Of a stretch of DNA of 32,825 nucleotides, positions 7,149 to 32,825 are shown piece after piece. The first letter of the stretch is position 1. Every line of letters begins with the position of its first letter. The notes below the pieces were generated by a model, which was given only the letters and a program-made list of their open reading frames with translations, was not told the DNA's origin and did not search any database. The translations under genes were made by a program, and so were the position numbers. Origin of the DNA: a virus; the IMG/VR virus record IMGVR_UViG_3300032265_001461, positions 1 through 32,825 of that record. One strand, given 5' to 3'.

Positions 7149-7865
7149 ATGAATACATATCAAGCATACACATATCTAATAAAATTCAAACCTACCGGTA
7201 AAGTTTATTACGGGGTAAGATTTAAGAACATAAGACTAAAACGGACTCCTGAAGAAGATTTCATAGTAATGTATAAAACAAGTAGCCAACAGATTAAAGA
7301 TTTAATAAAAGAATACGGGATAGAATCTTTTGAATGGGAAATACGTAAAACATTTGATACTCCGGAGCAGGCAATAGCTTGGGAAACAAAAGTATTGCGT
7401 AGATGTAATGTATTAAAGCGACAAGATATTTGGTACAATGCTAATGTATCTGGGTATAAAGTCACTACACCTAGAGGACGATTATCAATTAGTAATCGAC
7501 ATAAAGGAGTTCCTAAAACAGAAGAACATCGTAATAAAATGAAACTTATTATGATTGGAAAAAATAAAGGTCGTAAGCAAACAGACGAGCATCGACGTAA
7601 AAACTCCGAAGCTAATTCTAAAGAAAAACACCACCGTTGGGGTAAAACTCTTTCCGCAGAAGAACGTGCTAAATGCGGAGAAAAAAATAAAGGCAAGACT
7701 GCCCATAATAAAGGTAAGCCGATGAGCCAAGAACAAAAAAATCTAATATCGATTAGAAATAAAGGACAAAAACGTGAACGCCTCACCTGTCCCCACTGCA
7801 CAAAAGATATAGCTGTGAATACCTATGCGCTGTGGCACGGTAACCGTTGCAAGCTGGCTAAATAG
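7149..7865 (+). CDS. Free-standing GIY-YIG homing endonuclease with NUMOD3 repeats
   Basis: The 238-aa product has a GIY-YIG-like N-terminal domain (about 1-95): YLIKF (residues 9-13) and VYYGVRF (19-25) stand for the GIY and YIG elements, with Arg24 as the candidate catalytic Arg, Glu79 in AWETKVL as the candidate metal ligand, and WYNAN closing the domain. Residues about 110-220 are NUMOD3-type DNA-binding repeats, seen as successive GKNKGRKQTDEHRRK, GKTLSAEERAKCG, NKGKPMSQEQKNL units. The C-terminus carries a C-x2-C-x12-H-x3-C zinc-finger-like motif. The gene is A-rich, unlike its neighbours, and sits alone between a terminator and the next structural gene, as mobile homing genes do. It has no visible Shine-Dalgarno. 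Confidence 0.85.
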   Translation: MNTYQAYTYLIKFKPTGKVYYGVRFKNIRLKRTPEEDFIVMYKTSSQQIKDLIKEYGIESFEWEIRKTFDTPEQAIAWETKVLRRCNVLKRQDIWYNANVSGYKVTTPRGRLSISNRHKGVPKTEEHRNKMKLIMIGKNKGRKQTDEHRRKNSEANSKEKHHRWGKTLSAEERAKCGEKNKGKTAHNKGKPMSQEQKNLISIRNKGQKRERLTCPHCTKDIAVNTYALWHGNRCKLAK

Positions 7866-9794: not shown

Positions 9795-12700
9795 ATGACC
9801 CAACGCATTACCGGAACCAAGAACATAACACCCAGTGGTGATCAGACCATATCGGCTCCCGGTGGTAGCATCAATCTCATCACCACTGCCAGTGGTCAGA
9901 TATTTGCCAACAGCGGAGCCAACGTGGGCAATCCCAATAATATCCCCTACGATCCCAATGATATTTTTGATACTGCCGCTGACAGAAAAGAGGGTGCGGC
10001 CTATTTCACCGGCGGTGTGGGCATTGAAAAAGATCTCAACGTGGGCGGATTTATCTATGGTCGACTGGCTTCTCAAAACACCTCTACCCAATCTATCATC
10101 ACCGCAACCAACGCGGACAGGTATTTTTATCCAACATTTACCGATACGTTAGGGCCCAACGGCGGATATCTATACGGAGACAATCAATCAGACTATGCTT
10201 CCAGTGGTCTAAGATATAACCCTGCCACTGGAAAATTATTGGTTGATCAGCTCAGTGTAGCCAGCACAGCTTCCAGTAGCTCGCCAGTCACAGGTGCTTT
10301 TACAGTCACCGGAGGTGCTGGTATACTAGGTGATGTATGGATCGGTGGCAGCGAATACGTAGATACGCTCTATACTAAATTCATACGCAGCCAACAGGGT
10401 CCGGTAAGCATACAGCCAGCGTCTGGTCTTACAGAAATCCTAGGCGACATACGTGTGCTTGGGGTCAACCCCATAGGAACAGCACCAGAAGTCACCAACG
10501 TGTTATATGTCACAGTGGACGGGGACGATACCAACGATGGTCGTGCGCAGGATGCCAGCCGTGCCTGCCGTACCATAGGCGGTGCTCTTAAATCACCTTA
10601 CTATCAGCCAGGCACACAGATACAGGTATCTGCTGGACGCTACTTAGAAAACAATCCTCTACTGTTAAAACCCTATACCAGTGTCAAGGGCAGTGACATC
10701 CGTACCACATTCATCGAACCCATAAACAAGACGCAGGATCTATTCCACGTGCAGAGCGGTTGCTATCTAAACTACATGACCTTCCTCAATGGTCGCAGTG
10801 GACTCTTACCCGGTCAATATGCTCCAGGCTACAACAGAGGAGCCTATGCCACGGCATTTCCTCCACAGACAGGTGCGGATCGCATAGATCTATTCCACAG
10901 CCCCTATGTACAGAACGTCACTAATCAAAGCGGTCCCTGGTTGGTTGATGGAACCATGTTCGTGCCCGATCAGACGGTACAGATACCCGCAGCCGTGGGA
11001 CTAGGAACCTGGGATGTCAACACCACCAGCATAGTGATCTCAGTCACTACTGGCACTGTATCACTAGGACAGAGCATCAACGCTGGACAGCACAATCAAG
11101 GATTTTTCAATGCTCGCACCTTGTTATTGGCCAACAAACCATTCCTACAGGCACAGGTGGTGGCCTATGTCAACGCTACCTTTCCTGGGTTTGACTATAA
11201 TCAACAGCTCTGCTACAGAGACACAGGCATCTTGGTAGAAAACATGGCCTATGACATGGCCTTTGGTGGAAACGAAAAATCAATAGAAAGCGGACGGGCC
11301 TACTACCGTGGAGTGACCAGCGTGATAGCTGGACAGGAAGCTCAGACCGTAGCAGCCGTCAATTATCTCAGCACACTGAGCCAGAAGGTCGTGACTAACT
11401 CTCTGTGTACAGTTCTAGCACCTCCGGCCAGCATACCCTCTGCGTCACAGGTCGTCAACACTGTGTTGACTGGTGGGTCGATCAGCACGGCCAGTGTGCG
11501 TAAATTATTTGACATAACCACAGGTATCATATTAAATGGCCCTGATTCTGCACCACAGCTCTATAACAGTGCTGGACCAGATTCGGCATTCGTCAGTGCT
11601 GAAATACTCATGCAGGCCAACAGAGCCTTCATACAGGAAAACGTGGTCAACTATATCAATTACAATCTCTGTGTGCCTCCAAAGACCCTGCCCTACAATC
11701 AGATCAAATGCCGTAGAGATACTGGAATCATCATCGACAGCGTGGCCAGCGACCTCTTGTTTTCAACGTCGAGCCAGAGTACCTTTGCAGGGCTACAGTA
11801 TTACAGCCAAAACACCTATACAGGTTCTATACCAGCTGAGATAACAGCCACCATAGCTGCCATCAGCTATCTAAAAGACCTCAGTCTCAAAGTGGTGCAG
11901 AATATCACCACAGCCACCGATGCCCTGGTTGGAATCTCTAGATATACCAGCGGCGTGCAAACCACTGCCAGCAATCATGCCACGTCAGCTGAAGTCAGCA
12001 TCATTGGTACAGAATTTGATCTCATACTGAGCATACTGCGAGGCAACACCGCAGGACTAACAGACATGGTCATACCCAACGGCAGTGCCAGCAACCTTCC
12101 AAGCGTGAGAAACACAGTCAATCTACTGTTGGCCAACACGGGATATCTGGCTACAGAAGTGGTAGCCAGTGTACAGAACAACTTTCCGGATCTGTCGTTT
12201 GACTCGGCCAAATGTGCTCGAGATGTTGGCTATATAGTAGAAAGTGTGGCCTTCGATCTGCTCTATGGCGGAAATAGACAGGCCATACAGAGCGGTCTCA
12301 GTTACTATGCCAACACCAATAACGACACTGTGATTCCTAACGAAATACCAGCCACAGTTGACGCATTTACCTTCATAGGTGGGGTGGCTCGTGCCCTGAT
12401 ACAGGGAAATGACTATCAACCTCTACAGGGATCGATTAAACCAGTGCTTGGACTACCAGTAGGAGCAGGTGCGGATGCCGACATGGTGGTAGGTTATCTG
12501 GATATAATAACCAACATCATCGGCAATGGTCCTGGAGTAGCCGGGCCTTTGAGTCCTATGCCTATCACACCTAGCTCGTTGGCATCTACAGTCAACGCTT
12601 GGAATATACTCAAAGCCAATCGAGAGTTTATCGCGGCTGAAGTGATCGCTCATCTAGACCAGACTTATAATCCAGGATCGTTCAACTACAATCAAGACAA

Positions 12701-15023
12701 GTGTTATAGAGACACAGGTCTGATCATCGATGCGGTCAGCCAAGATATACTACTAGGTGGAAATCAAAAGAGTCTAGAAGCAGGCAACAGTTATTGGAAT
12801 GCTGGTTACAACTACATAGCAGGTCAAGAAAGCACCACCACACAGGCACTAAACTACGCTAGAGACATAGCTCTGCAGATCATAGCTAACACGCCTGTTA
12901 CACCGGTCACCGGCACAGTGGCTACACAGGTAATAAATCCTTTCTTCTCAGGCGGTAGAGCCTACATGCCTCAAGAAGCTGTACAGCGTAATTTCAAGAT
13001 CATCACAGATATCATAACCTACGGACCTGAACAGGCACCTCCTCCCTATGCTGGTGGTGGATTATTCAGCCTCACGGGATTGAACGGTAGTGATGTGAAA
13101 ATAGCTCCCACAGTGACAGCTATCAATGACAATATGGATGGAACCATAACAGTGGGACTCAGCACTGCCACGGTGGGATTTGGAACCAATGCCACCTTGT
13201 ATTTTGGCGATACTTATATTTTCCCTCTACAGGATGGTCAAGTAGAAGAACTCAGTTATCAGTATACAGGAAGTAGAAAAACCTGGGATCAACGCAAGGT
13301 AGACAAGTTAGGCAGTATGGGCGGCAGTCTAGTAGACGGTGCCGTGATATCTGACAGATCACCAATACAGTCTTTCGTCTATGATGCCTATACACAGGTT
13401 AACCAAGGCGGTTATGGTGTACATATCACCAACAACGGCTACGCACAGTTGGTTAGTGTGTTTACCATCTTCTGTTCAGTTGGTGTACAATGCGACAATG
13501 GCGGCAAGGCCAGTATCGTCAACAGCAACGCCAACTTTGGAGATCTCTGTCTAGTGGCCAAAGGCTACGGACCTAGAGACTTCAGTGGTACGGTCTTCAA
13601 TCCTATCAATCGTGCCTATCCCTTCAATGCAGAACTAGACCCATATTATCCCAATGGTTATTTTCCAGGAACTGGCGGCCTAGTAGAAGTATTCGTGCCC
13701 GACACAGGCAATCGTCCGCATATCGGGCAGGTCATGGAGATCATCCCTCCGGAGAGCTATGTCAACAATCAGGGATTTAGTGGGTTCTTGAACACACAGC
13801 CCAGCACCAGCACATTGACCACAGGAACTATAGAGCTGGTCAACATAGATACCACAGATGTCTATATAGGCAACACAGTCTACATACGAGATCAATATGG
13901 TAGTGAAAAAGACGCCAACGGAATATATTACGTTCCCCCAGGAACCACGGTAAGTGATGTTAACTATAACTCAATCAGTCTAACCCAGGCCTTGACCAGT
14001 GGTGGCGGCGACCCAACCAACAGCACATATTTTACCCTGTATTTCTGCGGAAATGCCTACTACACAGTCCAGACCAGCAACATAGCACAACAACCATATG
14101 CTCCTAGTTTGAACATACTCAGCGCCAACAGTGATCCGCGGTATCAAGGTCCCAGTGTCAATCAGATTTCAGCACACATCGCCAGCATCGAATACTTGAA
14201 AATAGCGGTAAATGCGGTGATCGCCAATACTGCGCCCCTAGGAGGTTGGATAACACAATCCAATGGTCAGACCATATTGCCGGCCGTGAAAGGAGGTCAT
14301 GGAGCGCAGGCCTTTGTAGATCTTAGATTTGGCTACATGACCAGCATAATTGGTGCTGCCAATCTCGCGGCCGCACAGACTGTGGTGCCTAGTGGACTGA
14401 TAACAACATCAGGAACCATACCCACGGGAGCTGGATCAGCCGTAACCCTGATAACAGCCAATTTAGATTTCTTGGCCAACGAAATAGTCGCCTATGTCAA
14501 TCAAAACTATGCCGGCCAGTTGGCAGGAAGCATGACCGATAACCAGACTGCGAAATGTGCTCGAGATGTCAAGTTGATACTTCAACAGTTGCTCTATGAT
14601 CTAGAATCTGGCGGTAATTATAATTCTGTCTACAGTGGACTCAGCTACTGGAGCCGCCCTGGAACCTATCATGTAGTAGAACTAGGCGAAGCTGTGACAG
14701 ACACCAGCCTATTCCCAGATGGCAGTACTGTAAACTTCTATGAGCGCAGTTATATATCAGCCAGCGGATACGTGTTTGAATATGTAGGCGCTGGCAGCAA
14801 CTACGGAGCTCTGCCACAGAGAGGAATAGCAGATCCTATACAGGGTCGAGAAACGATATCGTTAAATAGTGGTAAGGTGTTCTTCACATCAACCGACCAA
14901 AACGGTGATTTCCGTATTGGTACTGGTCTGGTTATCAGCCAAGCTACGGGAGTATTGAGCGGAAGGACATTCGTACAGAGTTTATATGCCAACATGACAC
15001 CGTTCATATTGGCTATCGAATAA
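9795..15023 (+). CDS. Large beta-helix structural protein with five CRD repeats (fibre or baseplate-associated)
   Basis: The 1742-aa product opens with a TGAL-type module (about 155-185, VTGAFTVTGGAGILGDVWIGG-like). Residues 236-336 (YVTVDGDDTNDG, then ACRTIGGAL and PYTSVKGSD) resemble the start of a pectate-lyase-like right-handed beta-helix. Five repeats follow with the pattern hydrophobic-helix, YNQxxCxRDxGxIxxxxxxDLLxGG, near residues 449-512, 609-679, 781-846, 939-1006 and 1556-1622. Helix-like strands resume at about 1179-1282 with YGVHITNNGYAQLVSVF. The C-terminus has FFTSTDQNGDFRIGTGL. Large proteins of this layout occur as virion proteins in cyanophages. No enzymatic residues are evident. 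AAAGGA precedes the start by 6 nt. The long length and repeats suggest an extended trimeric fibre or tail appendage. Confidence 0.85.
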   Translation: MTQRITGTKNITPSGDQTISAPGGSINLITTASGQIFANSGANVGNPNNIPYDPNDIFDTAADRKEGAAYFTGGVGIEKDLNVGGFIYGRLASQNTSTQSIITATNADRYFYPTFTDTLGPNGGYLYGDNQSDYASSGLRYNPATGKLLVDQLSVASTASSSSPVTGAFTVTGGAGILGDVWIGGSEYVDTLYTKFIRSQQGPVSIQPASGLTEILGDIRVLGVNPIGTAPEVTNVLYVTVDGDDTNDGRAQDASRACRTIGGALKSPYYQPGTQIQVSAGRYLENNPLLLKPYTSVKGSDIRTTFIEPINKTQDLFHVQSGCYLNYMTFLNGRSGLLPGQYAPGYNRGAYATAFPPQTGADRIDLFHSPYVQNVTNQSGPWLVDGTMFVPDQTVQIPAAVGLGTWDVNTTSIVISVTTGTVSLGQSINAGQHNQGFFNARTLLLANKPFLQAQVVAYVNATFPGFDYNQQLCYRDTGILVENMAYDMAFGGNEKSIESGRAYYRGVTSVIAGQEAQTVAAVNYLSTLSQKVVTNSLCTVLAPPASIPSASQVVNTVLTGGSISTASVRKLFDITTGIILNGPDSAPQLYNSAGPDSAFVSAEILMQANRAFIQENVVNYINYNLCVPPKTLPYNQIKCRRDTGIIIDSVASDLLFSTSSQSTFAGLQYYSQNTYTGSIPAEITATIAAISYLKDLSLKVVQNITTATDALVGISRYTSGVQTTASNHATSAEVSIIGTEFDLILSILRGNTAGLTDMVIPNGSASNLPSVRNTVNLLLANTGYLATEVVASVQNNFPDLSFDSAKCARDVGYIVESVAFDLLYGGNRQAIQSGLSYYANTNNDTVIPNEIPATVDAFTFIGGVARALIQGNDYQPLQGSIKPVLGLPVGAGADADMVVGYLDIITNIIGNGPGVAGPLSPMPITPSSLASTVNAWNILKANREFIAAEVIAHLDQTYNPGSFNYNQDKCYRDTGLIIDAVSQDILLGGNQKSLEAGNSYWNAGYNYIAGQESTTTQALNYARDIALQIIANTPVTPVTGTVATQVINPFFSGGRAYMPQEAVQRNFKIITDIITYGPEQAPPPYAGGGLFSLTGLNGSDVKIAPTVTAINDNMDGTITVGLSTATVGFGTNATLYFGDTYIFPLQDGQVEELSYQYTGSRKTWDQRKVDKLGSMGGSLVDGAVISDRSPIQSFVYDAYTQVNQGGYGVHITNNGYAQLVSVFTIFCSVGVQCDNGGKASIVNSNANFGDLCLVAKGYGPRDFSGTVFNPINRAYPFNAELDPYYPNGYFPGTGGLVEVFVPDTGNRPHIGQVMEIIPPESYVNNQGFSGFLNTQPSTSTLTTGTIELVNIDTTDVYIGNTVYIRDQYGSEKDANGIYYVPPGTTVSDVNYNSISLTQALTSGGGDPTNSTYFTLYFCGNAYYTVQTSNIAQQPYAPSLNILSANSDPRYQGPSVNQISAHIASIEYLKIAVNAVIANTAPLGGWITQSNGQTILPAVKGGHGAQAFVDLRFGYMTSIIGAANLAAAQTVVPSGLITTSGTIPTGAGSAVTLITANLDFLANEIVAYVNQNYAGQLAGSMTDNQTAKCARDVKLILQQLLYDLESGGNYNSVYSGLSYWSRPGTYHVVELGEAVTDTSLFPDGSTVNFYERSYISASGYVFEYVGAGSNYGALPQRGIADPIQGRETISLNSGKVFFTSTDQNGDFRIGTGLVISQATGVLSGRTFVQSLYANMTPFILAIE
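11140..14660 (+). repeat. Five coding repeats with the CxRD...DLLxGG signature
   Basis: Five diverged copies of a roughly 65-residue unit begin near 11140, 11620, 12135, 12610 and 14460. Each starts with a helix of the form FLAxEVVAYVN, then CYRDTG or CARDV, then a D(L/I/M)LxGG-like element and a SxxSGLSYY-like tail. Copies 1-4 are spaced about 480-515 nt apart. The fifth is separated by the second beta-helix segment. The conserved Cys may be a metal or structural residue, but this is inference. Confidence 0.8.
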
Positions 15024-21857: not shown

Positions 21858-22394
21858 ATGTCAGCAATCTCAAAAGACTTTTTAGTCAAACACGGCCTTG
21901 TGGTTTCAACCACGGCTACAGTACTGTCAGACAGCAATGCCTATTCTACTGCCACCGGTGCTTTGACAGTTGCCGGTGGAGCGGGGATTGGTCAGGATCT
22001 CTGGGTCGGTGGAAATATCCATGGCCTAGGCACTTTCAATCTATCTGGTCTACAGATAGGTCCAGCAGAAGCCTATCCTATAAGTCTCAGCTCAGATGGC
22101 ACTACAACCTACTACACCGCTACTAATACTGCCAGCATCATCTTCGCAGATGGAACCATACAGGAAACCAGGGCCCCTATAGCATGGACCAATGCCTTGT
22201 TCATTTCCGCAGCTACCTATCTCAATATAGATCCGGGTGTGGCCTTTGGCCCCATCGTATCGGGAGGATTAGTGGCCACGGGAGACACCTACTTCGATGA
22301 CGGATCTTTTGGAGGAGAAGGTGGACACATCTATATAATGACCGATCAGGGCAGTGGCGTAGTACAATTTCTTGATATAACACGGGCCGCATAA
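21858..22394 (+). CDS. Short fibre-like protein with one TGAL module
   Basis: The 178-aa product begins MSAISKDFLVKHGLVVSTTA, similar to the N-terminus of the 1180-aa protein, and carries one module (about residues 34-57, TATGALTVAGGAGIGQDLWVGG-like, ending in NIHG). The rest is Gly/Thr/Ser-rich with IIFADGTIQETRAPIAW at about 93-110 and a C-terminal YFDDGSFGGEGGHIYIM segment. It may be a short fibre or a base for the giant adhesin encoded 3 nt downstream. AAGGGA at 21841-21846 is the only upstream purine-rich element, 11 nt before the ATG. Confidence 0.78.
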   Translation: MSAISKDFLVKHGLVVSTTATVLSDSNAYSTATGALTVAGGAGIGQDLWVGGNIHGLGTFNLSGLQIGPAEAYPISLSSDGTTTYYTATNTASIIFADGTIQETRAPIAWTNALFISAATYLNIDPGVAFGPIVSGGLVATGDTYFDDGSFGGEGGHIYIMTDQGSGVVQFLDITRAA

Positions 22395-22397
22395 CAC

Positions 22398-25300
22398 ATG
22401 GCGATTTATTACTATCCCAATCCCAGTACTACTCCCAGTACTACCTTAAAACAGTACTCCACGGCTACTAACGACATAGTGGTCAGCGGCGCCAGTGCTG
22501 TTGTTAAACTAACCAAAACTCTAGGACTAGTATGGAGTGCATATTCTCCCAGCGCCAGTGACAAAGGCGCCACTATACCTTTTATACCAGGCACTGCCAG
22601 CGGCCAAGCACCTGTTGTCCCTAGCCTAGTTGCTACTGTACTGGTAGCTAACCAGACTATCACGTCAGGACAGGCGGCTAGTTTTACTCCTGTCAGCATC
22701 TACGGTGGTTCTGCAGTAGCCACCAGCTATCAGACTTCGGGAACATTCGTAGGCTACAACATATCTATATCACCGAGTCTACCAGCGGGCCTTGCGCTGT
22801 CTTCAACATTCGCTACTCTAAACCAGTTAAATCCTACCAATGCTACCTATTATCTCTACAACAGCGCATCGGTAAAAATCAATGGAACCCCCACGTCAGC
22901 CAGTGCAAGTCAGACCTATACCATAACTTTTTCAGATGCCAGTGGACTCACAGCCAATGCCAGTTTTACCCTGGCAGTGCTCAGTAATCAGAATCCCTTA
23001 ACCGTTACGGGACTGCTAACCACCAACCAACTGCTGACACAAGGGGTAGCGGTTAACAATCTAGCCACGGTTAGTTCTCAAGGTGGTAGCGGAACTCTCA
23101 ATTACTCAATATCGCCAACGCTGCCAACTGGGCTGACATTTAGCTCTACTACCGGTGCGATCAACGGGACTCCTACGGTCAGCGCCTCGGTAGCTACCTA
23201 TACCGTCACGGTAACTGATCAAAGCTCACCTGCACAGACAGCCAGCGCCACATTTAATCTCCTGGTCAATGCCAATCTTCCTACAGCAACATTGGCAGTA
23301 CCTAATAAATCACTAACACAGGGAGTCAGCTTTACTGCCTTCACTCCGGTCACAGGCAGTGGAGGCACTGCACCTCTGCATTATACCATATCATCTAGCC
23401 TGCCCGGTGGATTGACATTTACTACCAGTACAGGTAGTATCAGTGGCATACCCAGCTCTCCTCTGGCAGCGACTAATTTTATCATATCAGTAGTTGATAG
23501 CCTAAATCAATCAGCGAGCCAGACATTTAATTTAAGTATTAATTCTTTACCATTACTATCGGCCCTACAGACCCAGGCCAATTATAATCTCTTTAGATCT
23601 ACAGCGGTTACTGCCTTTACTCCTATACAGGCCAATGGCGGATACGGAACAGTTACCTATTCTATATCTCCTACACTGCCTAGTGGATTGAGCTACAACA
23701 CTGCCAGTGGCCAAGTAACAGGGACTCCTACCTCTACCAGTACCACAGCAACCTATACAGTATCTTTAGCAGATCAAGGTGGACAAACAGCATCTGGTAA
23801 CTTTGCCTTAAATGTCAGCAGTATTCCAATTTCAGTAACACAGCAGATAGCCAGCACCTTGTTAACTCGCAATGTTACCTTTAATACGTTTATTCCGGTA
23901 TTGGCCAGCGGTGGATACACTCCTTATACCTATAGTGTAACACCTGGACTGCCTAGTGGCCTGTCATTCTCAACCAGTAGTGGATACATATCAGGCACAG
24001 CCACTACCAGCAGTGTTGCTACCAACTATACTGTAGCAGTTACAGACTCGGCCAGTCAATCAGGAACCAGCTCTTTTAGCCTAACTGTATTAAATCCAAC
24101 CGCCATCAGTCTAACACAGACAGTTAGCAATCTAACTTTAACACAAAATGTAGCTGCCACAGCATTTACGCCTATATCAGCCACTGGTGGATATGGAACG
24201 TTAACCTACGCCATTAGTCCTACATTGCCCGCAGGATTATCTTTTGACACCACCACTGGACGAATCAGTGGAACTCCTACAGCATACTTGATAAATGCCA
24301 CTTCATTCACTGTTACAGTAACAGATCAAGCGTCACAAACAGCTACAGGCAGCTTTAATCTTACTGTAGTGACTCCTAATTTTTCAGTATCAGTAGCAGT
24401 ACCGTCGACCAACTTGATCAAAGGAGTCAGTGCTTCTTCCTTCCAACCAGTCACTGCACAAGGAGGAGCAACACCCTATAGATATAGTATAACTCCTAGT
24501 ATATCCGCAGGATTGACATTCAACACGGCCACTGGATCCATATCGGGTACACCTACGGTAACCAATACTACCAGCTACTCTGTTACAATCACAGACGCAC
24601 CAGGACATACTGGAACAGGAACATTTTCGATTAGCGTTGTTAATCCTACTCCACTGACCCTAACAACATTAGTCACAAGTACCAGTTTGATAAAATCTGT
24701 CGACACAGCAAACTTTACACCTGTACAGGCCTCGGGCGGTTATGGTAGTATATCATTGAGTGTTACTCCCAGTCTACCAGCGGGATTGAATTTTTCAACG
24801 ATTGGTAAGATAACAGGTACTCCTACACAGGCCAGCAGTCAAACAGCTTATCAGGTATTGGGGATTGACAGTATTGGACAGATAGGGTCCAGCACCTTTT
24901 ATCTAACAGTATCAAATCCTCAGCTAACATCAACCAGTGTGATCAATGCAGTTACCTTGACACAATATGTATCTGTCACACCGTTTAGTCCTGTTACCTA
25001 TATTGGCGGAAATCCTCCTGTAGTATTTTCTGTTGCACCAACGTTGGGCACAGGATTAAGTCTAAATTCTAGTACAGGAGTTATATCAGGAACTCCCACA
25101 GCAACGACAGCTCCAACCAGTTATGCCATCACCATCACTGATTCCAGTAATTCTACAACTAGCCAATCTTTAAGTTTACAGGTTGTAGCTCCACCAGCGT
25201 TGGTCGCTACCACGGTAAATGGATCTATTACCGCTTATGCCAATCTCTATCTGTCGCCAATAGCTCCAGTTACTGCGTCAGGCGGATATGGGGCCTATAG

Positions 25301-28300
25301 TTACAGCATAGCACCGGGAGTACCTAGTGGATTGGTTTTCAATTCAACCAATGGACAGCTCAACGGAACACCCAGCACTACCGCTACTGTCGCCTCCTAT
25401 ACGATCACCGTAACTGATCCAATCAGCCAGACCACCAGCAGTCAGTTTAGTCTAACTGTGGCCCCGCAGGCGGTGGTAGCATCAGTTGCTATACCCAGCA
25501 CTACACTGTTAGTATATCAGCTGGCCAATCCTTTTACTCCCGTAACAGCGTCGGGCGGCTACGGATCATTGGCCTATAGCCTGTCTACCAGTCTGCCCTC
25601 TGGCCTCAGTTTTAACAGTGGTACTGGACAGATAACAGGAACTCCTACTGCGGTCAGTGACACCAGTACCTATACAGTAACGATAACTGATTCTATCAAT
25701 CAGTCAAATACTGGTAGTTTTGCTCTCAGCGTTTATCCCACAGCTCCGTCACCCCTAAGTGTTACGATCAGCAACGGCAACGTCAGCTTGGTACAGAATC
25801 AAACCGTTAGTTTTAATCCAGTACAGGTCCTAGGTGGTGTCAGCCCCTATTCATATAGTATAACTCCTGCATTACCAACAGGACTGGTATATTCCAGCAG
25901 TACAGGAGTGATCAGCGGAACTCCAGCCAATGTTTCTTCGGCTACATCATTTAATATCACGGTAACTGACGGGCAACCACAGACCATTACCAAGACCTTC
26001 AGCATCACTGTAACCGGTGGCAGTGTAAATGCCAGCGGCAATCAGACACAGATCAATAACAATGCCGCCTCAACCGGTACCAGTAGCGGTGCATTGATAG
26101 TCGCAGGCGGCGTTGGCGTTGGTGGAGACTTAAATGTCGGCGGATCTTTAGTAATTTCTGGAGGTGGTACCAGCACTCATTTAACTGTGACTTCTTCCGA
26201 TAATAGTACCAGCACAACCACAGGCGCATTAACTGTATCAGGTGGAGTTGGTATTGGCAAAGATCTAATTGTAGGTGGTAACTTAACTGTATTGGGCTCA
26301 TTGGCCATTACTACCGGTAGTATTAGTCAATATGCGGCAACCAGCATAACAGCCGGAACTGACACAGCGGTTAGTACAGCCACAGGCTCTGTAATCATAT
26401 GGAATACAAGTACTCTACAGACCGTGACAGGTCGTGGACACACGACTACCAATGCCATTAATATCACTAATACTACCGATACGGCTGGTACCAATACCGG
26501 TGCTTTGACAGTTGCCGGTGGCGTGGGAATTGGCAAAGATCTCTGGGTCGGCGGCACGATCTATGGTACCATCGGCGGCGCCAATGTTTCCAGTATTGTC
26601 AGCAGTGCTACCAATGCAGAAAACATCACCATCAACAATGTGATACCTGCTCAGACATATTATGTAACATTGGCAGAACAAAAAGATGGTAACTATTCAG
26701 CACTAGACGCGGATACCAACTTAACCTATGACAGCAGTTTACAGACGTTAACCATTGGTAGCTCTGCTGTTAGTACAAGTACAAACACCGGTGCATTGGT
26801 TGTCAGTGGCGGGGTTGGTATCGGTGGAGATCTATATATAGGTGGAGAATTATTTGTAAACAAGGCAAATATCATCACCACATCCAGCGGAGTTGAATTT
26901 ATACAGGCCGCATTACAGGCTGGCCCAGGAATAAGTCTAACCACTAGCACAAATTACACACGAATAACCAATATTGGCGTTACCGCTACCATAGCAGGTA
27001 CAGATATTTCAGTCAGCGGCAATACAGGGTCGGTAACAATCAACAACGTCAGTACACTACAGAGTGTAACCAGCAGAGGTAGTTCAACTAATCAGTTGAT
27101 CACTATAACAAATGGCACGAATTCAATTAATTCCACAACAGGTGCTCTACAGGTCACGGGTGGTGTTGGCATAGGTGGCAACTTAAATGTTGGCGGCACT
27201 ATGCAGGTCTGGGGCCCAGTGACATTCAGCAGTCCTGTGACGTTTAGCGGCACTGCTACCTATTCATTGAGTTCTAACACCTATTATACAGACAACATCC
27301 TAGAAGTACACGTTCCTCCTGGTGGTGTATACGGTTCTTGGCCTTCAGACGATGGCAAAGATGTAGGACTGCGTTTCCACTATTACAGTAGGACCTTAAG
27401 CACAGACAGCAACGCGGCATTGGTATTAGCTGACAATAGCCAATATTTAGAATGGTATAACACCGGTGCTGAAAGTTCAACAGGCACATTTATCGGTGCG
27501 GGCTATGGTACATTCAAGACCGGTAACATCATATTGGCCAGCACAGCATCTAGCTCAGACGTCAATTCCGGAGCATTAACAGTAGCCGGAGGAGTTGGTG
27601 TAGGTGGTGCGGTATATATCAACACAACATCATACATTGCCGGCGCTATAATAGTCACAACAGCCACTATAGCTCAATGGGCCTATCTGGGACCTCAAGG
27701 TTACACAGGATCAACAGGATATACTGGTAGCATTGGCTACACAGGATCAACAGGTACACAGGGTGTTATCGGTTATGTTGGTAGCATTGGCTACACAGGA
27801 TCAACAGGTACACAGGGTGTTATCGGTTATGTTGGTAGCATTGGCTACACCGGTAGCATCGGCTACACAGGATCAACAGGTACACAGGGATCGATAGGTT
27901 ATGTTGGTAGTCAAGGAATTCCTGGTTACGTAGGATCACAAGGTGTTATCGGTTATGCTGGTAGCATCGGTTACACAGGTTCAACAGGTACTCAGGGATC
28001 GATAGGTTATACTGGTAGCATCGGTTACACAGGTTCAACAGGTACTCAGGGATCGATAGGTTATACTGGTAGCATCGGTTACACAGGTTCAACAGGTACA
28101 CAGGGAGTTATTGGATACACTGGTAGCATAGGTTATACTGGTTCAACAGGTACTCAGGGTGAGATTGGTTACACAGGTAGCATCGGTTACACAGGTTCAA
28201 CAGGTACTCAGGGTGAGATTGGTTACACAGGTAGCATCGGTTATACTGGCTCAACAGGTACTCAAGGTCTTACTGGTTACACAGGTAGCATAGGTTATAC

Positions 28301-31300
28301 TGGTTCAACAGGTACTCAGGGTCTTACTGGTTACACAGGTAGCATCGGTTACACAGGTTCAACAGGTACTCAAGGTCTTACTGGTTACACAGGTAGCATC
28401 GGTTATACTGGTAGCATCGGTTATACTGGTTCAACAGGTACTCAGGGATCGATAGGTTATACTGGTAGCATCGGTTATACAGGTTCAACAGGTACTCAAG
28501 GTCTTACTGGTTACACAGGTAGCATAGGTTATACTGGTTCAACAGGTACTCAAGGTCTTACTGGTTACACAGGTAGCATCGGTTACACAGGTTCAACAGG
28601 TACTCAGGGTGAGATTGGATACACAGGTAGTGTAGGCTATACAGGTTCAACTGGTTATGTGGGATCACAAGGATCATTTACTGGAACTACGAGTCTTCAA
28701 ATAATCACAACAAATTCTACTAGTGCTACTAGCACAAATACAGGAGCCCTACAGGTCACAGGTGGCGCCGGGATCGGTGGAGATCTGTATGTTGGTGGTG
28801 AAATCGTAGCACAAAAACTCACTATCCAATATACCACAGTAACAACTACATTAGTTAAAACAGATGATGTAATACAGACATACAATACAACTCCAGCAGT
28901 TGATTCAACATCAGGAGCATTAACCGTTGCTGGCGGTGTTGGTATCGGCGGCGATCTCTATGCAGGAGGATCATTAAATGCGTCATCATTAGTCATAACA
29001 GAAAATGGCACTGGTAATCAATACGCATTAACCCTGAAAGGCTCAGGATCGGGAGATCAATGGGCATTTACAGTAGGAAGTACTGCTGGAAATAACAATA
29101 TAACCAGCCTTAACAATGCTGGAAATGCCTATGCACCATTTACTGTAAACGGATCTTCATTTAATGTAGGTACGATAGGCGCAGGTGCTACATCTAGCCT
29201 TACCGTTGATAATGCTGGACAGGTTAAGATTATAGCAACAATCGCCTCAACCTCAACTACTTCGGGAGCATTAGTTGTCGCAGGAGGAGTTGGTATAGGT
29301 GGCGCACTGTATGTTAACACAACCAGTTTCGTGGCCGGCGCCCAAATAGTTACCACTGCTACTTTATTTGGATTTGGTGGTATTGGCTATACAGGATCGA
29401 TAGGTTATACCGGCAGCGTTGGATTCACTGGTTCAACAGGTACACAGGGATCGATAGGTTATACTGGTAGCATTGGTTATACAGGTTCAACAGGTACTCA
29501 AGGATCGATAGGTTATACTGGTTCAACAGGTACACAGGGTGTCATAGGTTATACTGGTAGCATTGGTTATACAGGTTCAACAGGTACACAAGGTGTCATA
29601 GGTTATACTGGATCAACAGGTACACAGGGATCGATAGGTTATACTGGTAGCATTGGTTATACAGGTTCAACAGGTACACAGGGTGTCATAGGTTATACCG
29701 GATCAACTGGTACACAAGGTAGCATAGGTTATACAGGTTCAACAGGTACACAGGGATCGATAGGTTATACTGGTAGTATTGGATACGTTGGATCACAGGG
29801 ATCATTTACCGGAACCACAAATCTTCAAATCATTACCACAAATGCAACTGCCTCTACCAGCACCAATACAGGTGCTTTACAGGTCACTGGCGGTGCTGGT
29901 ATAGGCAAAGATCTATGGGTTGGTGGCAATATCAATGTCGCTGGCTCGATTAATTTAACAGCCAGTTCAAGTTTTACTGATTTTACTGCTACTACAGGAA
30001 CATTCCAGACTGTTGTAATAACCAGTTCTACAATCAGCACCTCTACTACGACCGGAGCATTGACAGTAGCAGGTGGTGTCGGCATAGGTGGTGCAGTATG
30101 GATTGGTAACACTTCATATATTGCCGGTGCACAGATCGTTACTACTGCTACTATTGGCAACTACACAGCCTCTAGTTCTAGTTTTGCTACAACAGCTAGT
30201 AACATTGCGGTAACCACTGCTAACCTTAATCAGCCCTATTATATAACATTTATTTCAACTACGTCGGGCAATATCAATGTTGTCAGCGATGCAGGAAGTA
30301 AACTTACTTACAATCCTGCTACCGGAGTATTAACCAATGCAGGTACTGCATCAAGTATATCAACCACGACAGGTGCACTGATAGTCACAGGTGGTGTTGG
30401 TGTAGGCGGAAACTTAAATGTTGGTGGCATATTAACAGCCACAAGTTTATCAGTAGGAGGATCGGGCGGAGACATTACCGGTGTTGTTAATATTGTTGGC
30501 GTTGGTACATTCACAGCCGGATCATTTACTGCCACGTCTACAACACCAGCAACATCTACCGCAACAGGTGCTTTACAGGTAGCAGGTGGAGTTGGGATTG
30601 GTGGAGATCTCTACGTTGGTGGACAGATCGTAGCACAAAAACTCACTATTGAATATACTACTGTCACAACTACATTAATTAAAACTGATGACATAATACA
30701 AACATACAATACCACTGTATCTTCTTCAACTACTACTGGCGCTCTAGTAGTAGCAGGTGGAGTTGGCATAGGTGGTGCTGTTTATATTAACACAACATCA
30801 TTCATCGCCGGAGCTCAGATTGTCACCACTGCTACATTATTCAATTTTGGTGGTATAGGTTATACTGGTAGTGTTGGTTACACTGGTAGCATCGGCTACA
30901 CAGGATCGACAGGTACTCAGGGATCGATAGGTTATACAGGTTCAACAGGTACACAGGGATCGATAGGTTATACAGGTTCAACAGGTTATACTGGTAGCAT
31001 TGGTTATACTGGATCAACTGGTACACAAGGTAGCATAGGTTATACTGGTTCAACAGGTACTCAGGGCGTTATTGGTTACACAGGATCTACAGGTACACAG
31101 GGGTCGATAGGTTATACAGGATCTACAGGTACACAGGGCGTTATCGGTTATACTGGTAGTATAGGTTATGTAGGTTCTCAGGGAGCATCATTCACTGGCA
31201 CAACGACATCTACGGTAATTATAAACAATACCACCAGTGTCTATTCAACTAATTCAGGTGCTCTACAGGTCACAGGAGGAGTTGGAGTTGGTGGTGGCAT

Positions 31301-32825
31301 TTTTGCAGGTGGAGTGGTTACAGCTACCAGTATCAATGTCACAGGTGGCGGTGGTAATATCAGCGGAGCCAACAACATTACCGGTGTAGGTACATTTACA
31401 GCCGGATCATTCACTGCTACAAGTGGCATTGCCTCTACCTCAACTACAACAGGCGCTGTAGTAGTACAGGGCGGTGTTGGCATCAGCGGTAGTGTCTATA
31501 TAGGAACAACCAGCTATATTGCTGGAGCACAGATCGTCACAACAGCTACACTAGTCCAATACGGAGGAGTAGGTTATACAGGCAGCATAGGTTACACAGG
31601 TAGCATCGGTTATACCGGATCAACTGGTACACAGGGATCGATAGGTTATACAGGTTCAACTGGTACACAGGGATCGATAGGTTATACAGGATCGACAGGT
31701 ACACAGGGAGTCATTGGTTATACAGGTTCAACAGGTACACAGGGTGTCATTGGTTATACTGGATCGGCCGGAATCAGTACTACAGCTAGTTATGCTACCA
31801 CAGCGACTACATCTAGCTATGCTACCACAGCCAGCAATATATTGGTATCTACAGTTAATACTAATCAGCCCTACTATATAACATTTATTTCAACTACCAC
31901 AGGTACTATCAATGTGGTCAGCGATGCGGGATCTAAACTAACTTACAATCCCGGTACCGGAGTATTAATTAATGCTGGTACAGCAGGTACAGCAGGCACC
32001 ACAACAGGTGCTTTGGTAGTCTCGGGCGGTGTAGGTATAGGCGGAGGATTATACGTAGGCGGAGTCGTAACAGCCACCAGTTTCTATACAGCAGGTGGTA
32101 TACAGGTAGATGCCGGCTCAACATTTACCAATCTAGTCGTAACTGGCACAAACATAACCACAAGTACCACGACCGGTGCACTAACTGTCGCAGGTGGAGT
32201 AGGCGTGGGTGGAAATCTAGCCATAGGTGGCGGCATATATGCCAGTGGATCAACAGGAACCAACGGACAATATCTACAGTCAACCGGCGCAGGCATTCAA
32301 TGGGTATCATTATCTAGTACCTTTACCGGCGGCGCTGTAGCCAATGCTACGCAGTTTAATAATACAACGTCAAGCACTTCAACAACTACAGGTGCTGTGA
32401 CCATAGCAGGCGGACTAGGTGTACAGGGCAATATCAATTTTGGTGGTAACCTATACCAAAACGGTGTCTTATTCACTGGCGGTGGTAGTGGCAGTGCTTC
32501 TATCACAGTCAGCGATACTCCTCCTACAACAACAACCAACGGTGCTCTATGGTGGGACAGCCAGGTTGGTAATCTAGCTATCTATTATTCTGCAGCCGGT
32601 GCTTGGGTTGATGCTGTAACTCAGTATCAATTCTCAGGTGGTATAGTCACAGGTGCTACACAGTTTACCAATACTGCGTCAACCACTTCGACTACCACAG
32701 GTGCTCTAGTAGTCACAGGTGGGGTAGGTATAGGTGGTGGACTGTTCGTTGGTGGTAATGTAACCGCAACTAACTTCTATATCTCGGGTGGTATACAGGT
32801 AGATGCTGGTTCAACACTGACTAAT
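22398..32825 (+). CDS. Giant modular adhesin: Ig-like, TGAL and collagen-like repeats (3' end outside window)
   Basis: I read this frame codon by codon from ATG 22398 to the right edge and found no stop: at least 3476 residues. It starts MAIYYYPNPSTTPS, 3 nt after the previous stop and without a Shine-Dalgarno, suggesting translational coupling. Residues about 68-1208 are about twelve He_PIG-type Ig-like repeats. Residues about 1228 onward hold some twenty TGAL/GGVGIGG modules, a unit at about 1628-1705 shared with the 1180-aa protein, and four Gly-X-Y tracts (residues 1765-2094, 2327-2470, 2818-2931, 3056-3127). Near 3370-3408 lies an ALWWDSQVGNLAIYY unit of the kind seen in phage fibres. 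Such proteins typically bind surface glycans or other virion parts, so a long surface adhesin or fibre is the best guess. No enzyme motif is seen. Confidence 0.88.
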   Translation, partial: MAIYYYPNPSTTPSTTLKQYSTATNDIVVSGASAVVKLTKTLGLVWSAYSPSASDKGATIPFIPGTASGQAPVVPSLVATVLVANQTITSGQAASFTPVSIYGGSAVATSYQTSGTFVGYNISISPSLPAGLALSSTFATLNQLNPTNATYYLYNSASVKINGTPTSASASQTYTITFSDASGLTANASFTLAVLSNQNPLTVTGLLTTNQLLTQGVAVNNLATVSSQGGSGTLNYSISPTLPTGLTFSSTTGAINGTPTVSASVATYTVTVTDQSSPAQTASATFNLLVNANLPTATLAVPNKSLTQGVSFTAFTPVTGSGGTAPLHYTISSSLPGGLTFTTSTGSISGIPSSPLAATNFIISVVDSLNQSASQTFNLSINSLPLLSALQTQANYNLFRSTAVTAFTPIQANGGYGTVTYSISPTLPSGLSYNTASGQVTGTPTSTSTTATYTVSLADQGGQTASGNFALNVSSIPISVTQQIASTLLTRNVTFNTFIPVLASGGYTPYTYSVTPGLPSGLSFSTSSGYISGTATTSSVATNYTVAVTDSASQSGTSSFSLTVLNPTAISLTQTVSNLTLTQNVAATAFTPISATGGYGTLTYAISPTLPAGLSFDTTTGRISGTPTAYLINATSFTVTVTDQASQTATGSFNLTVVTPNFSVSVAVPSTNLIKGVSASSFQPVTAQGGATPYRYSITPSISAGLTFNTATGSISGTPTVTNTTSYSVTITDAPGHTGTGTFSISVVNPTPLTLTTLVTSTSLIKSVDTANFTPVQASGGYGSISLSVTPSLPAGLNFSTIGKITGTPTQASSQTAYQVLGIDSIGQIGSSTFYLTVSNPQLTSTSVINAVTLTQYVSVTPFSPVTYIGGNPPVVFSVAPTLGTGLSLNSSTGVISGTPTATTAPTSYAITITDSSNSTTSQSLSLQVVAPPALVATTVNGSITAYANLYLSPIAPVTASGGYGAYSYSIAPGVPSGLVFNSTNGQLNGTPSTTATVASYTITVTDPISQTTSSQFSLTVAPQAVVASVAIPSTTLLVYQLANPFTPVTASGGYGSLAYSLSTSLPSGLSFNSGTGQITGTPTAVSDTSTYTVTITDSINQSNTGSFALSVYPTAPSPLSVTISNGNVSLVQNQTVSFNPVQVLGGVSPYSYSITPALPTGLVYSSSTGVISGTPANVSSATSFNITVTDGQPQTITKTFSITVTGGSVNASGNQTQINNNAASTGTSSGALIVAGGVGVGGDLNVGGSLVISGGGTSTHLTVTSSDNSTSTTTGALTVSGGVGIGKDLIVGGNLTVLGSLAITTGSISQYAATSITAGTDTAVSTATGSVIIWNTSTLQTVTGRGHTTTNAINITNTTDTAGTNTGALTVAGGVGIGKDLWVGGTIYGTIGGANVSSIVSSATNAENITINNVIPAQTYYVTLAEQKDGNYSALDADTNLTYDSSLQTLTIGSSAVSTSTNTGALVVSGGVGIGGDLYIGGELFVNKANIITTSSGVEFIQAALQAGPGISLTTSTNYTRITNIGVTATIAGTDISVSGNTGSVTINNVSTLQSVTSRGSSTNQLITITNGTNSINSTTGALQVTGGVGIGGNLNVGGTMQVWGPVTFSSPVTFSGTATYSLSSNTYYTDNILEVHVPPGGVYGSWPSDDGKDVGLRFHYYSRTLSTDSNAALVLADNSQYLEWYNTGAESSTGTFIGAGYGTFKTGNIILASTASSSDVNSGALTVAGGVGVGGAVYINTTSYIAGAIIVTTATIAQWAYLGPQGYTGSTGYTGSIGYTGSTGTQGVIGYVGSIGYTGSTGTQGVIGYVGSIGYTGSIGYTGSTGTQGSIGYVGSQGIPGYVGSQGVIGYAGSIGYTGSTGTQGSIGYTGSIGYTGSTGTQGSIGYTGSIGYTGSTGTQGVIGYTGSIGYTGSTGTQGEIGYTGSIGYTGSTGTQGEIGYTGSIGYTGSTGTQGLTGYTGSIGYTGSTGTQGLTGYTGSIGYTGSTGTQGLTGYTGSIGYTGSIGYTGSTGTQGSIGYTGSIGYTGSTGTQGLTGYTGSIGYTGSTGTQGLTGYTGSIGYTGSTGTQGEIGYTGSVGYTGSTGYVGSQGSFTGTTSLQIITTNSTSATSTNTGALQVTGGAGIGGDLYVGGEIVAQKLTIQYTTVTTTLVKTDDVIQTYNTTPAVDSTSGALTVAGGVGIGGDLYAGGSLNASSLVITENGTGNQYALTLKGSGSGDQWAFTVGSTAGNNNITSLNNAGNAYAPFTVNGSSFNVGTIGAGATSSLTVDNAGQVKIIATIASTSTTSGALVVAGGVGIGGALYVNTTSFVAGAQIVTTATLFGFGGIGYTGSIGYTGSVGFTGSTGTQGSIGYTGSIGYTGSTGTQGSIGYTGSTGTQGVIGYTGSIGYTGSTGTQGVIGYTGSTGTQGSIGYTGSIGYTGSTGTQGVIGYTGSTGTQGSIGYTGSTGTQGSIGYTGSIGYVGSQGSFTGTTNLQIITTNATASTSTNTGALQVTGGAGIGKDLWVGGNINVAGSINLTASSSFTDFTATTGTFQTVVITSSTISTSTTTGALTVAGGVGIGGAVWIGNTSYIAGAQIVTTATIGNYTASSSSFATTASNIAVTTANLNQPYYITFISTTSGNINVVSDAGSKLTYNPATGVLTNAGTASSISTTTGALIVTGGVGVGGNLNVGGILTATSLSVGGSGGDITGVVNIVGVGTFTAGSFTATSTTPATSTATGALQVAGGVGIGGDLYVGGQIVAQKLTIEYTTVTTTLIKTDDIIQTYNTTVSSSTTTGALVVAGGVGIGGAVYINTTSFIAGAQIVTTATLFNFGGIGYTGSVGYTGSIGYTGSTGTQGSIGYTGSTGTQGSIGYTGSTGYTGSIGYTGSTGTQGSIGYTGSTGTQGVIGYTGSTGTQGSIGYTGSTGTQGVIGYTGSIGYVGSQGASFTGTTTSTVIINNTTSVYSTNSGALQVTGGVGVGGGIFAGGVVTATSINVTGGGGNISGANNITGVGTFTAGSFTATSGIASTSTTTGAVVVQGGVGISGSVYIGTTSYIAGAQIVTTATLVQYGGVGYTGSIGYTGSIGYTGSTGTQGSIGYTGSTGTQGSIGYTGSTGTQGVIGYTGSTGTQGVIGYTGSAGISTTASYATTATTSSYATTASNILVSTVNTNQPYYITFISTTTGTINVVSDAGSKLTYNPGTGVLINAGTAGTAGTTTGALVVSGGVGIGGGLYVGGVVTATSFYTAGGIQVDAGSTFTNLVVTGTNITTSTTTGALTVAGGVGVGGNLAIGGGIYASGSTGTNGQYLQSTGAGIQWVSLSSTFTGGAVANATQFNNTTSSTSTTTGAVTIAGGLGVQGNINFGGNLYQNGVLFTGGGSGSASITVSDTPPTTTTNGALWWDSQVGNLAIYYSAAGAWVDAVTQYQFSGGIVTGATQFTNTASTTSTTTGALVVTGGVGIGGGLFVGGNVTATNFYISGGIQVDAGSTLTN
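22600..26020 (+). repeat. About twelve tandem He_PIG-type Ig-like domain repeats
   Basis: Units of about 90-93 residues (270-280 nt) each carry ISPTLPxGLxFxxxTGxIxGTPT followed by a YTVTVTD strand and a linker to the next unit. Core motifs occur near 22775, 23110, 23390, 23660, 23940, 24210, 24485, 24760, 25035, 25305, 25580 and 25860. The first copy is the most diverged, with an extended loop before GTPT. Putative Ig domains of this family make rigid rod-like stalks in bacterial and phage adhesins. Confidence 0.87.
27690..28679 (+). repeat. Collagen-like tract 1: 110 uninterrupted Gly-X-Y triplets
   Basis: Every third codon is Gly across 990 nt. The main units are GYT, GSI, GST and GTQ, with GVI, GYV, GLT, GEI and GSQ as alternates. 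Proline appears only in GPQ at the start and GIP near 27916. Nearly identical 36-63-nt DNA units recur, so slippage or recombination is likely. Confidence 0.95.
29376..29807 (+). repeat. Collagen-like tract 2: 48 Gly-X-Y triplets
   Basis: The tract runs from GGI through a GSV/GFT variant into GYT-GST-GTQ-GSI/GVI units and ends GYV-GSQ-GSF. That end matches the end of tract 1, where the Thr-Gly-Thr-Thr sequence after it is also similar. No proline or charged residue is present. Confidence 0.95.
30849..31190 (+). repeat. Collagen-like tract 3: 38 Gly-X-Y triplets
   Basis: It begins GGI-GYT-GSV, continues with GYT-GST-GTQ-GSI and GVI units, and ends GYV-GSQ-GAS before FTGTTTS. The flanks match tract 2: an LFNFGGIGYTG-like entry and a GYVGSQG exit. 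Confidence 0.95.
31563..31778 (+). repeat. Collagen-like tract 4: 24 Gly-X-Y triplets
   Basis: It begins GGV-GYT-GSI-GYT-GSI and continues with GST-GTQ-GSI/GVI units, ending GYT-GSA-GIS before a Ser/Thr/Ala-rich linker. It is the shortest tract and lacks the GYVGSQG exit of tracts 1-3. Confidence 0.95.

Follow-up and report, generated by a model that had tools for sequence, protein, structure and literature searches.

The 32,825-nt window analysed here, which is the entire IMG/VR record IMGVR_UViG_3300032265_001461, ends within a giant ORF whose product we consider, with somewhat better than even confidence, to be a homotrimeric long extension arm, docked via a partner protein, that belongs to the tail-fibre apparatus of an uncultured T4-like, probably jumbo, myophage. 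The data establish the ORF and its domains, a gene pair and a gene slot that are both conserved, and the homology of the terminal domain; trimerisation, physical docking, the position on the virion and a role towards the receptor are inferred from these.

The window and its relatives

The presence of gp20, gp21, gp22 and gp23 among the head genes of the window identifies the source as a T4-like myophage. Its capsid protein is nearest (68-71%) to those of the jumbo phages Phosso, Vibrio 2.275.O and the GAP32/CBB group, and the genome is probably of jumbo size. The fibre-locus genes, unlike the capsid protein, resemble cyanophage genes. No fibre gene comparable to the giant was found beside the head genes of Phosso and Vibrio phage 2.275.O, the isolate relatives by capsid protein, and no relatives were found among host-linked genome contigs. 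The close relative used below, IMGVR_UViG_3300025389_000014 (loci L013, L062 and L092), comes from another assembly and is about 85-91% identical to the window at the nucleotide level around the head and first fibre genes.

Three other genes deserve mention. Behind gp23 the window carries a homing endonuclease (7149-7865; SegE-type GIY-YIG plus NUMOD3), in place of which the relative has a different gene (L093:13271-14095), endonuclease-like by eye. Between the portal and prohead-protease genes lies that of a 286-aa protein (2051-2911), conserved in the relative, which had no Pfam or PHROG match and, judged by eye, may resemble an SGNH-type hydrolase. Finally, the repeated segments encoded by a 1,742-aa tail-fibre gene (9795-15023) look helical, one of them matching Pfam Phycobilisome above cut-off (E 2.9e-8).

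Domain organisation of the fibre

The features of the giant ORF and its upstream neighbour are as follows.

21858-22394, plus strand: partner gene, 178 aa, with an FLVKHGLVV-type N-terminus, directly upstream of the giant ORF
22137-22391, plus strand: conserved C-terminal docking domain of the partner (profile, locus comparison)
22398-32825, plus strand: giant fibre ORF, ATG start, 3,476 codons, 3' open (complete homologue 4,301 aa)
22398-22628, plus strand: N-terminal anchor, residues 1-77 (~77), conserved in the Ig-fibre family
22629-22991, plus strand: Ig1, residues 78-198, an enlarged Ig-like domain (AlphaFold/Foldseek)
22992-26027, plus strand: eleven He_PIG domains, residues 199-1210, period about 92 aa (Pfam, pattern counts)
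26028-27689, plus strand: module region A, 6 TGALxVxGGVGIGG modules (pattern counts)
27690-28679, plus strand: collagen-like tract 1, 110 triplets (Pfam, pattern counts)
28680-29375, plus strand: module region B, 3 modules (pattern counts)
29376-29807, plus strand: collagen-like tract 2, 48 triplets (pattern counts)
29808-30848, plus strand: module region C, 5 modules (pattern counts)
30849-31190, plus strand: collagen-like tract 3, 38 triplets (pattern counts)
31191-31562, plus strand: module region D, 2 modules (pattern counts)
31563-31778, plus strand: collagen-like tract 4, 24 triplets (pattern counts)
31779-32825, plus strand: module region E, 4 modules, truncated where the contig stops (pattern counts)

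The initial annotation had counted a dozen Ig-like domains, about twenty short modules and four collagen-like tracts, and these figures were borne out. He_PIG (PF05345) was found above the Pfam cut-off in 12 stretches (E 1.6e-62), while the confident AlphaFold model of Ig1 retrieved Ig-type domains with Foldseek, bacterial adhesins among them. Family match for the stack and predicted fold for Ig1 mark these as He_PIG/Ig-like adhesin domains. Pattern counts gave 20 GGVG modules and four Gly-X-Y tracts comprising 220 triplets. These tracts, which include the GYTGSIGYTGSTGTQG tract, are uninterrupted and match the collagen family PF01391, found by Pfam in 12 stretches (E 5.6e-79). The anchor yielded no resolved structure on AlphaFold prediction, and homology to the FPxNPxxGxxY heads of neighbouring fibres was rejected (hhalign probability below 1%).

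The composition of the 660 collagen-like residues is unusual, with only 2 Pro, no Lys or Arg, 3 acidic residues and 11% Tyr/Phe. For Gly-X-Y tracts so nearly free of Pro, a triple helix is a candidate structure. Between window and relative the anchor, Ig stack and module region A are colinear at 72-86% identity; the collagen triplets number 220 in the window, where the ORF is 3'-open, versus 297 in the relative, and the later modules vary too, as expected of a shaft changing through gain and loss of repeats. The TGALxVxGGVGIGG-type module is present in six genes of the fibre locus (9795-32825), a distribution that would favour recombination among them.

The upstream partner gene

The anchored Ig fibres of 18 loci (about 15 distinct) all come immediately after a gene that ends, over its last ~65 residues, in one conserved domain. 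A profile of this docking domain, built from 13 partner C-termini with L133 and L012 left out, was run against the 4,197 ORFs of the collected loci: every match was a gene immediately preceding an Ig fibre, and the two omitted partners were recovered. The partner is present upstream of all 14 distinct anchored fibres, at a gap of 2-35 nt. A new scan with the docking domain alone brought in three more contigs, two of which (L275 and L277) show an anchored fibre next and the third of which ends where the fibre would follow. Around this constant inner pair of domains there are at least six types of partner N-terminus and at least four types of fibre C-end. In other phages the anchor and Ig stack are likewise joined to quite different distal parts and neighbours, complete members of the family ranging from 1,540 to 4,301 aa. 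Anchor distances correlate with docking-domain distances at r 0.755, versus 0.58 for the partner N-terminus. Neither anchor nor docking domain had a homologue in isolate phages, even at E 1 (about 50,700 phage records).

These observations suggest that the docking domain and anchor form a docking pair that is transferred as a unit spanning the gene boundary, and the simplest reason for their staying together would be that they bind one another. The main rival explanation holds that they co-occur, without contact, through linkage or a recombination site at the gene boundary. Fibre genes often have recombination hot spots between them, the two domains are just 2-35 nt apart, and linkage alone can produce both conserved adjacency and correlated distances. 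It leaves unexplained, however, why, in 4,197 ORFs, the docking domain is never seen apart from the anchor, and why the pair is conserved at the protein level despite differing flanks. We regard linkage as a serious, if rather unlikely, alternative to docking.

Literal insertion of a cassette into a single fibre gene may have produced this arrangement; an exchange of parts across the junction of two neighbouring fibre slots fits equally well. One contig, IMGVR_UViG_3300002092_001237 (L122/L133), carries two docking-partner/Ig-fibre pairs close together in a single phage.

The far end and its gene slot

The C-terminal end of the relative's protein, which lies beyond the end of the window, consists of a small jellyroll and a helix. 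Annotated tail fibres from cyanophages and from Roseobacter and Bradyrhizobium phages share this terminal domain, which is also present in at least 371 IMG/VR stretches. Among 92 jellyroll matches in the fetched loci, 37 start within the first 120 residues, 12 are C-terminal and 43 lie elsewhere. The AlphaFold model of the relative's terminal domain has a core pLDDT of about 95, and Foldseek matched it to podophage tail/fibre chains, CBA120 TSP4 and a T4 baseplate chain. Whole-alignment scores for the ~60-residue jellyroll, modelled for the relative only, were, for CBA120 TSP4, 1.4 Å over 61 columns (7rej_A) and E 8.5e-4 (7rfv), and E 0.037 for 5iv5 (T4 baseplate). The predicted fold of the jellyroll appears similar to XD2/XD3, the domains through which trimers dock in T4 gp10 and CBA120 TSP4. 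Since these domains mediate trimer-trimer docking in TSP4 and gp10 (PMC8825819), the far end of the fibre may carry another protein.

Pattern matching at eight loci showed that the genes directly preceding the phrog_5838 structural gene share an ending (about AFxxAMxxAxG) in every case, although their bodies range from 183 to 4,301 aa and their N-termini are unrelated. The giant thus appears to fill a recurring fibre slot with a version that bears Ig domains.

Place on the virion

That the giant protein belongs to the tail-fibre/adsorption apparatus we consider likely. The initial annotation had read it as a fibre of no obvious role, whether tail fibre, capsid fibre or whisker; the fibre reading stands, and the role is now narrowed by the neighbourhoods of the relatives and by the terminal domain, which favour the first of these. 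In one locus (G003) the homologue is preceded by baseplate genes of the gp6 and gp7/gp8 types together with fibre genes, and the gene after it matches a 'baseplate wedge tail fiber protein connector' family; at other loci an Mtd_N-type tail-fibre gene follows. By sequence, the modular body, the end domain known from tail fibres and the tail/fibre gene neighbourhood place the protein in the predicted tail-fibre class. Its own PHROG tail-fibre matches rest on the collagen-like tracts and modules, and no Pfam family of the T4 gp34-gp37 shaft or tip was found in the ORF. A fibre diversified by a DGR was rejected, reverse transcriptase PF00078 being found in none of ten related records (possibly fragments).

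An alternative position is the neck or tail sheath, where the protein would form a whisker, a hair- or collar-like filament comparable to T4 fibritin or the CBB tail hairs, rather than a baseplate fibre. In Synechococcus phage S-CAM1 the phrog_5838 gene directly precedes the neck genes gp13-gp15, the place of wac in T4, and CBB, whose capsid protein is 68% identical, bears 119-nm tail hairs. Yet the relatives lie behind baseplate gp6/gp8 genes and beside the tail-fibre-connector-like gene, the terminal domain is common to tail fibres, and fibritin/wac matches were absent (from Pfam and PHROG searches of the window protein and from a Pfam search of the relative's terminal 876 aa), so that a whisker is improbable.

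Still less probable, and in our view only a slight chance, is a capsid fibre or head decoration with Ig domains, like T4 Hoc. The gene does share a locus with gp20-gp23, and short parts of it match the PHROG families 'head decoration' and 'structural protein', but these matches correspond to the 35-50 residue GGVG module of six locus genes, and the homologues in other phages are not beside head genes. In PHROGs some of the module matches are classed with head proteins, the modules themselves being common to most genes of the locus.

Integrity of the open reading frame

As first annotated, the frame runs from its ATG at 22398 to 32825 without a stop and is still open where the contig breaks off within a repeat; since the window is the whole record, the absent stop is simply the contig end. 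At the window's base composition a stop-free run of 3,476 codons (10.4 kb) has a chance probability of ln P about -196, and over the entire length GC by codon position keeps its periodicity in a single frame; a chance origin is excluded. The stop, which the initial annotation proposed to seek by extension, is reached in the related contig IMGVR_UViG_3300025389_000014, where the gene is complete in a single frame of 12,906 nt (L092:871-13776, minus strand), encoding 4,301 aa plus stop. The end of the window aligns with L062 at 10576, or one repeat on at 10744, leaving the window ORF short by about 500-550 residues before the stop. A third contig, L063, starts in the same repeat and has the same 3' end; it was rejected as a direct continuation of the window, there being no exact overlap and an identity of only 77-92%.

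The collagen-like and GGVG repeats are alike at the DNA level and two contigs terminate within them, so that an assembly joining repeats of different genes, a threat already raised in the initial annotation, had to be weighed. Over residues 1-1764, however, the independent contig, from a distinct phage population and another assembly, keeps the identical order from the anchor to the first collagen tract with one gapped residue in total and 72-86% identity, and the relative has one open frame through to its stop. In the Ig stack dN is about 0.19 and dS above 1.7, indicating purifying selection. Colinearity together with dN far below dS thus points to one intact, selected gene; the artefact is refuted for residues 1-1764 and, for the ORF as a whole, extremely improbable.

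Proposed assembly and its significance

In the arrangement we propose, the N-terminal anchor would dock as a trimer on the conserved C-terminal domain of the partner (21858-22394); this small protein would itself attach to the virion through its own N-terminus. The twelve Ig-like domains, beta modules and collagen-like rods would hold the far end off the particle: about 190 nm of reach would come from the collagen-like tracts alone, if normal triple helices form, and the Ig domains would add about 50 nm. At the tip, outside the window, the XD2/XD3-like jellyroll and helix would either connect to another structural or spike protein or form the fibre's end.

The docking domain and the anchor/Ig block may further constitute one cassette that spans the gene boundary, moves between phages and extends different pre-existing fibres, having been joined in this phage to the fibre slot preceding the phrog_5838 structural gene. 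The broader proposal, that such a mobile docking cassette adds to various tail fibres a very long arm whose far end bears a second docking jellyroll, is put forward tentatively, at rather less than even confidence. If true, a single recombination would change the length and reach of a fibre while leaving its virion-attachment and receptor-binding parts untouched, and fibre exchange shapes phage host range. A two-domain joint that stays constant amid changing surroundings would suit fibre parts as a natural plug and socket. The origin of unusually long fibres would be explained by the addition of whole arms, and the docking domain with its anchor would provide a sequence handle for spotting such arms in uncultured phages.

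Comparison with known systems

The initial annotation judged the protein very large even for a phage fibre. This holds against typical fibres, but size as such is not new, S-CREM2 gp85 (OR473000) being a single-chain precedent: this 4,971-aa long tail fibre yielded 286 unique peptides by mass spectrometry of purified virions (PMC10665884). Like the window protein it is the single-chain giant fibre of a T4-like phage with a small gene directly upstream, called 'tail fibre attachment' there and the partner here. Unlike the window fibre, gp85 has no Ig or collagen-like content, nor was any sequence homology to the window proteins detectable. Giant proteins also occur directly behind gp6 at L141:4910-17350 (4,146 aa) and L139:3623-14254 (3,543 aa), the former having a T4 baseplate wedge subunit-like start followed by 17 He_PIG and 5 laminin-G-like domains.

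Multi-protein fibres joined through docking domains are likewise already known: CBA120 TSP1-4 (PMC8825819) and Alcyoneusvirus RaK2 (PMC10253068) form branched complexes in which several trimeric fibre proteins are joined in this way. The relative's terminal domain appears to resemble the TSP4 XD2/XD3 domains in predicted fold, although these are N-terminal on a carrier spike in TSP4 and C-terminal on a very long arm here. Unlike the CBA120 and RaK2 systems, the docking/anchor pair at the near end matches no isolate phage. Searches of about 50,700 phage records gave no match to an Ig plus collagen architecture with a conserved partner domain, nor was one found in the literature searched. The contigs of two Ig-fibre homologues carry tryptophan halogenase genes (PF04820; L090:3269-4639, minus strand, and L101:478-2037; E 4e-77 and 6e-90).

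Pectobacterium phage CBB (PMC5259590) has long surface filaments and a major capsid protein 68% identical to that of the window; searches for the anchor gave no homologue in isolates. Parallels by position are S-CAM1 SXBG_00215 (380 aa) and the L064 fibre (2,502 aa). Unlike the giant, both are without anchor, Ig stack and docking partner, but they occupy the same phrog_5838 slot and end in the same C-terminal motif, and the L064 fibre, like the giant, has GGVG modules.
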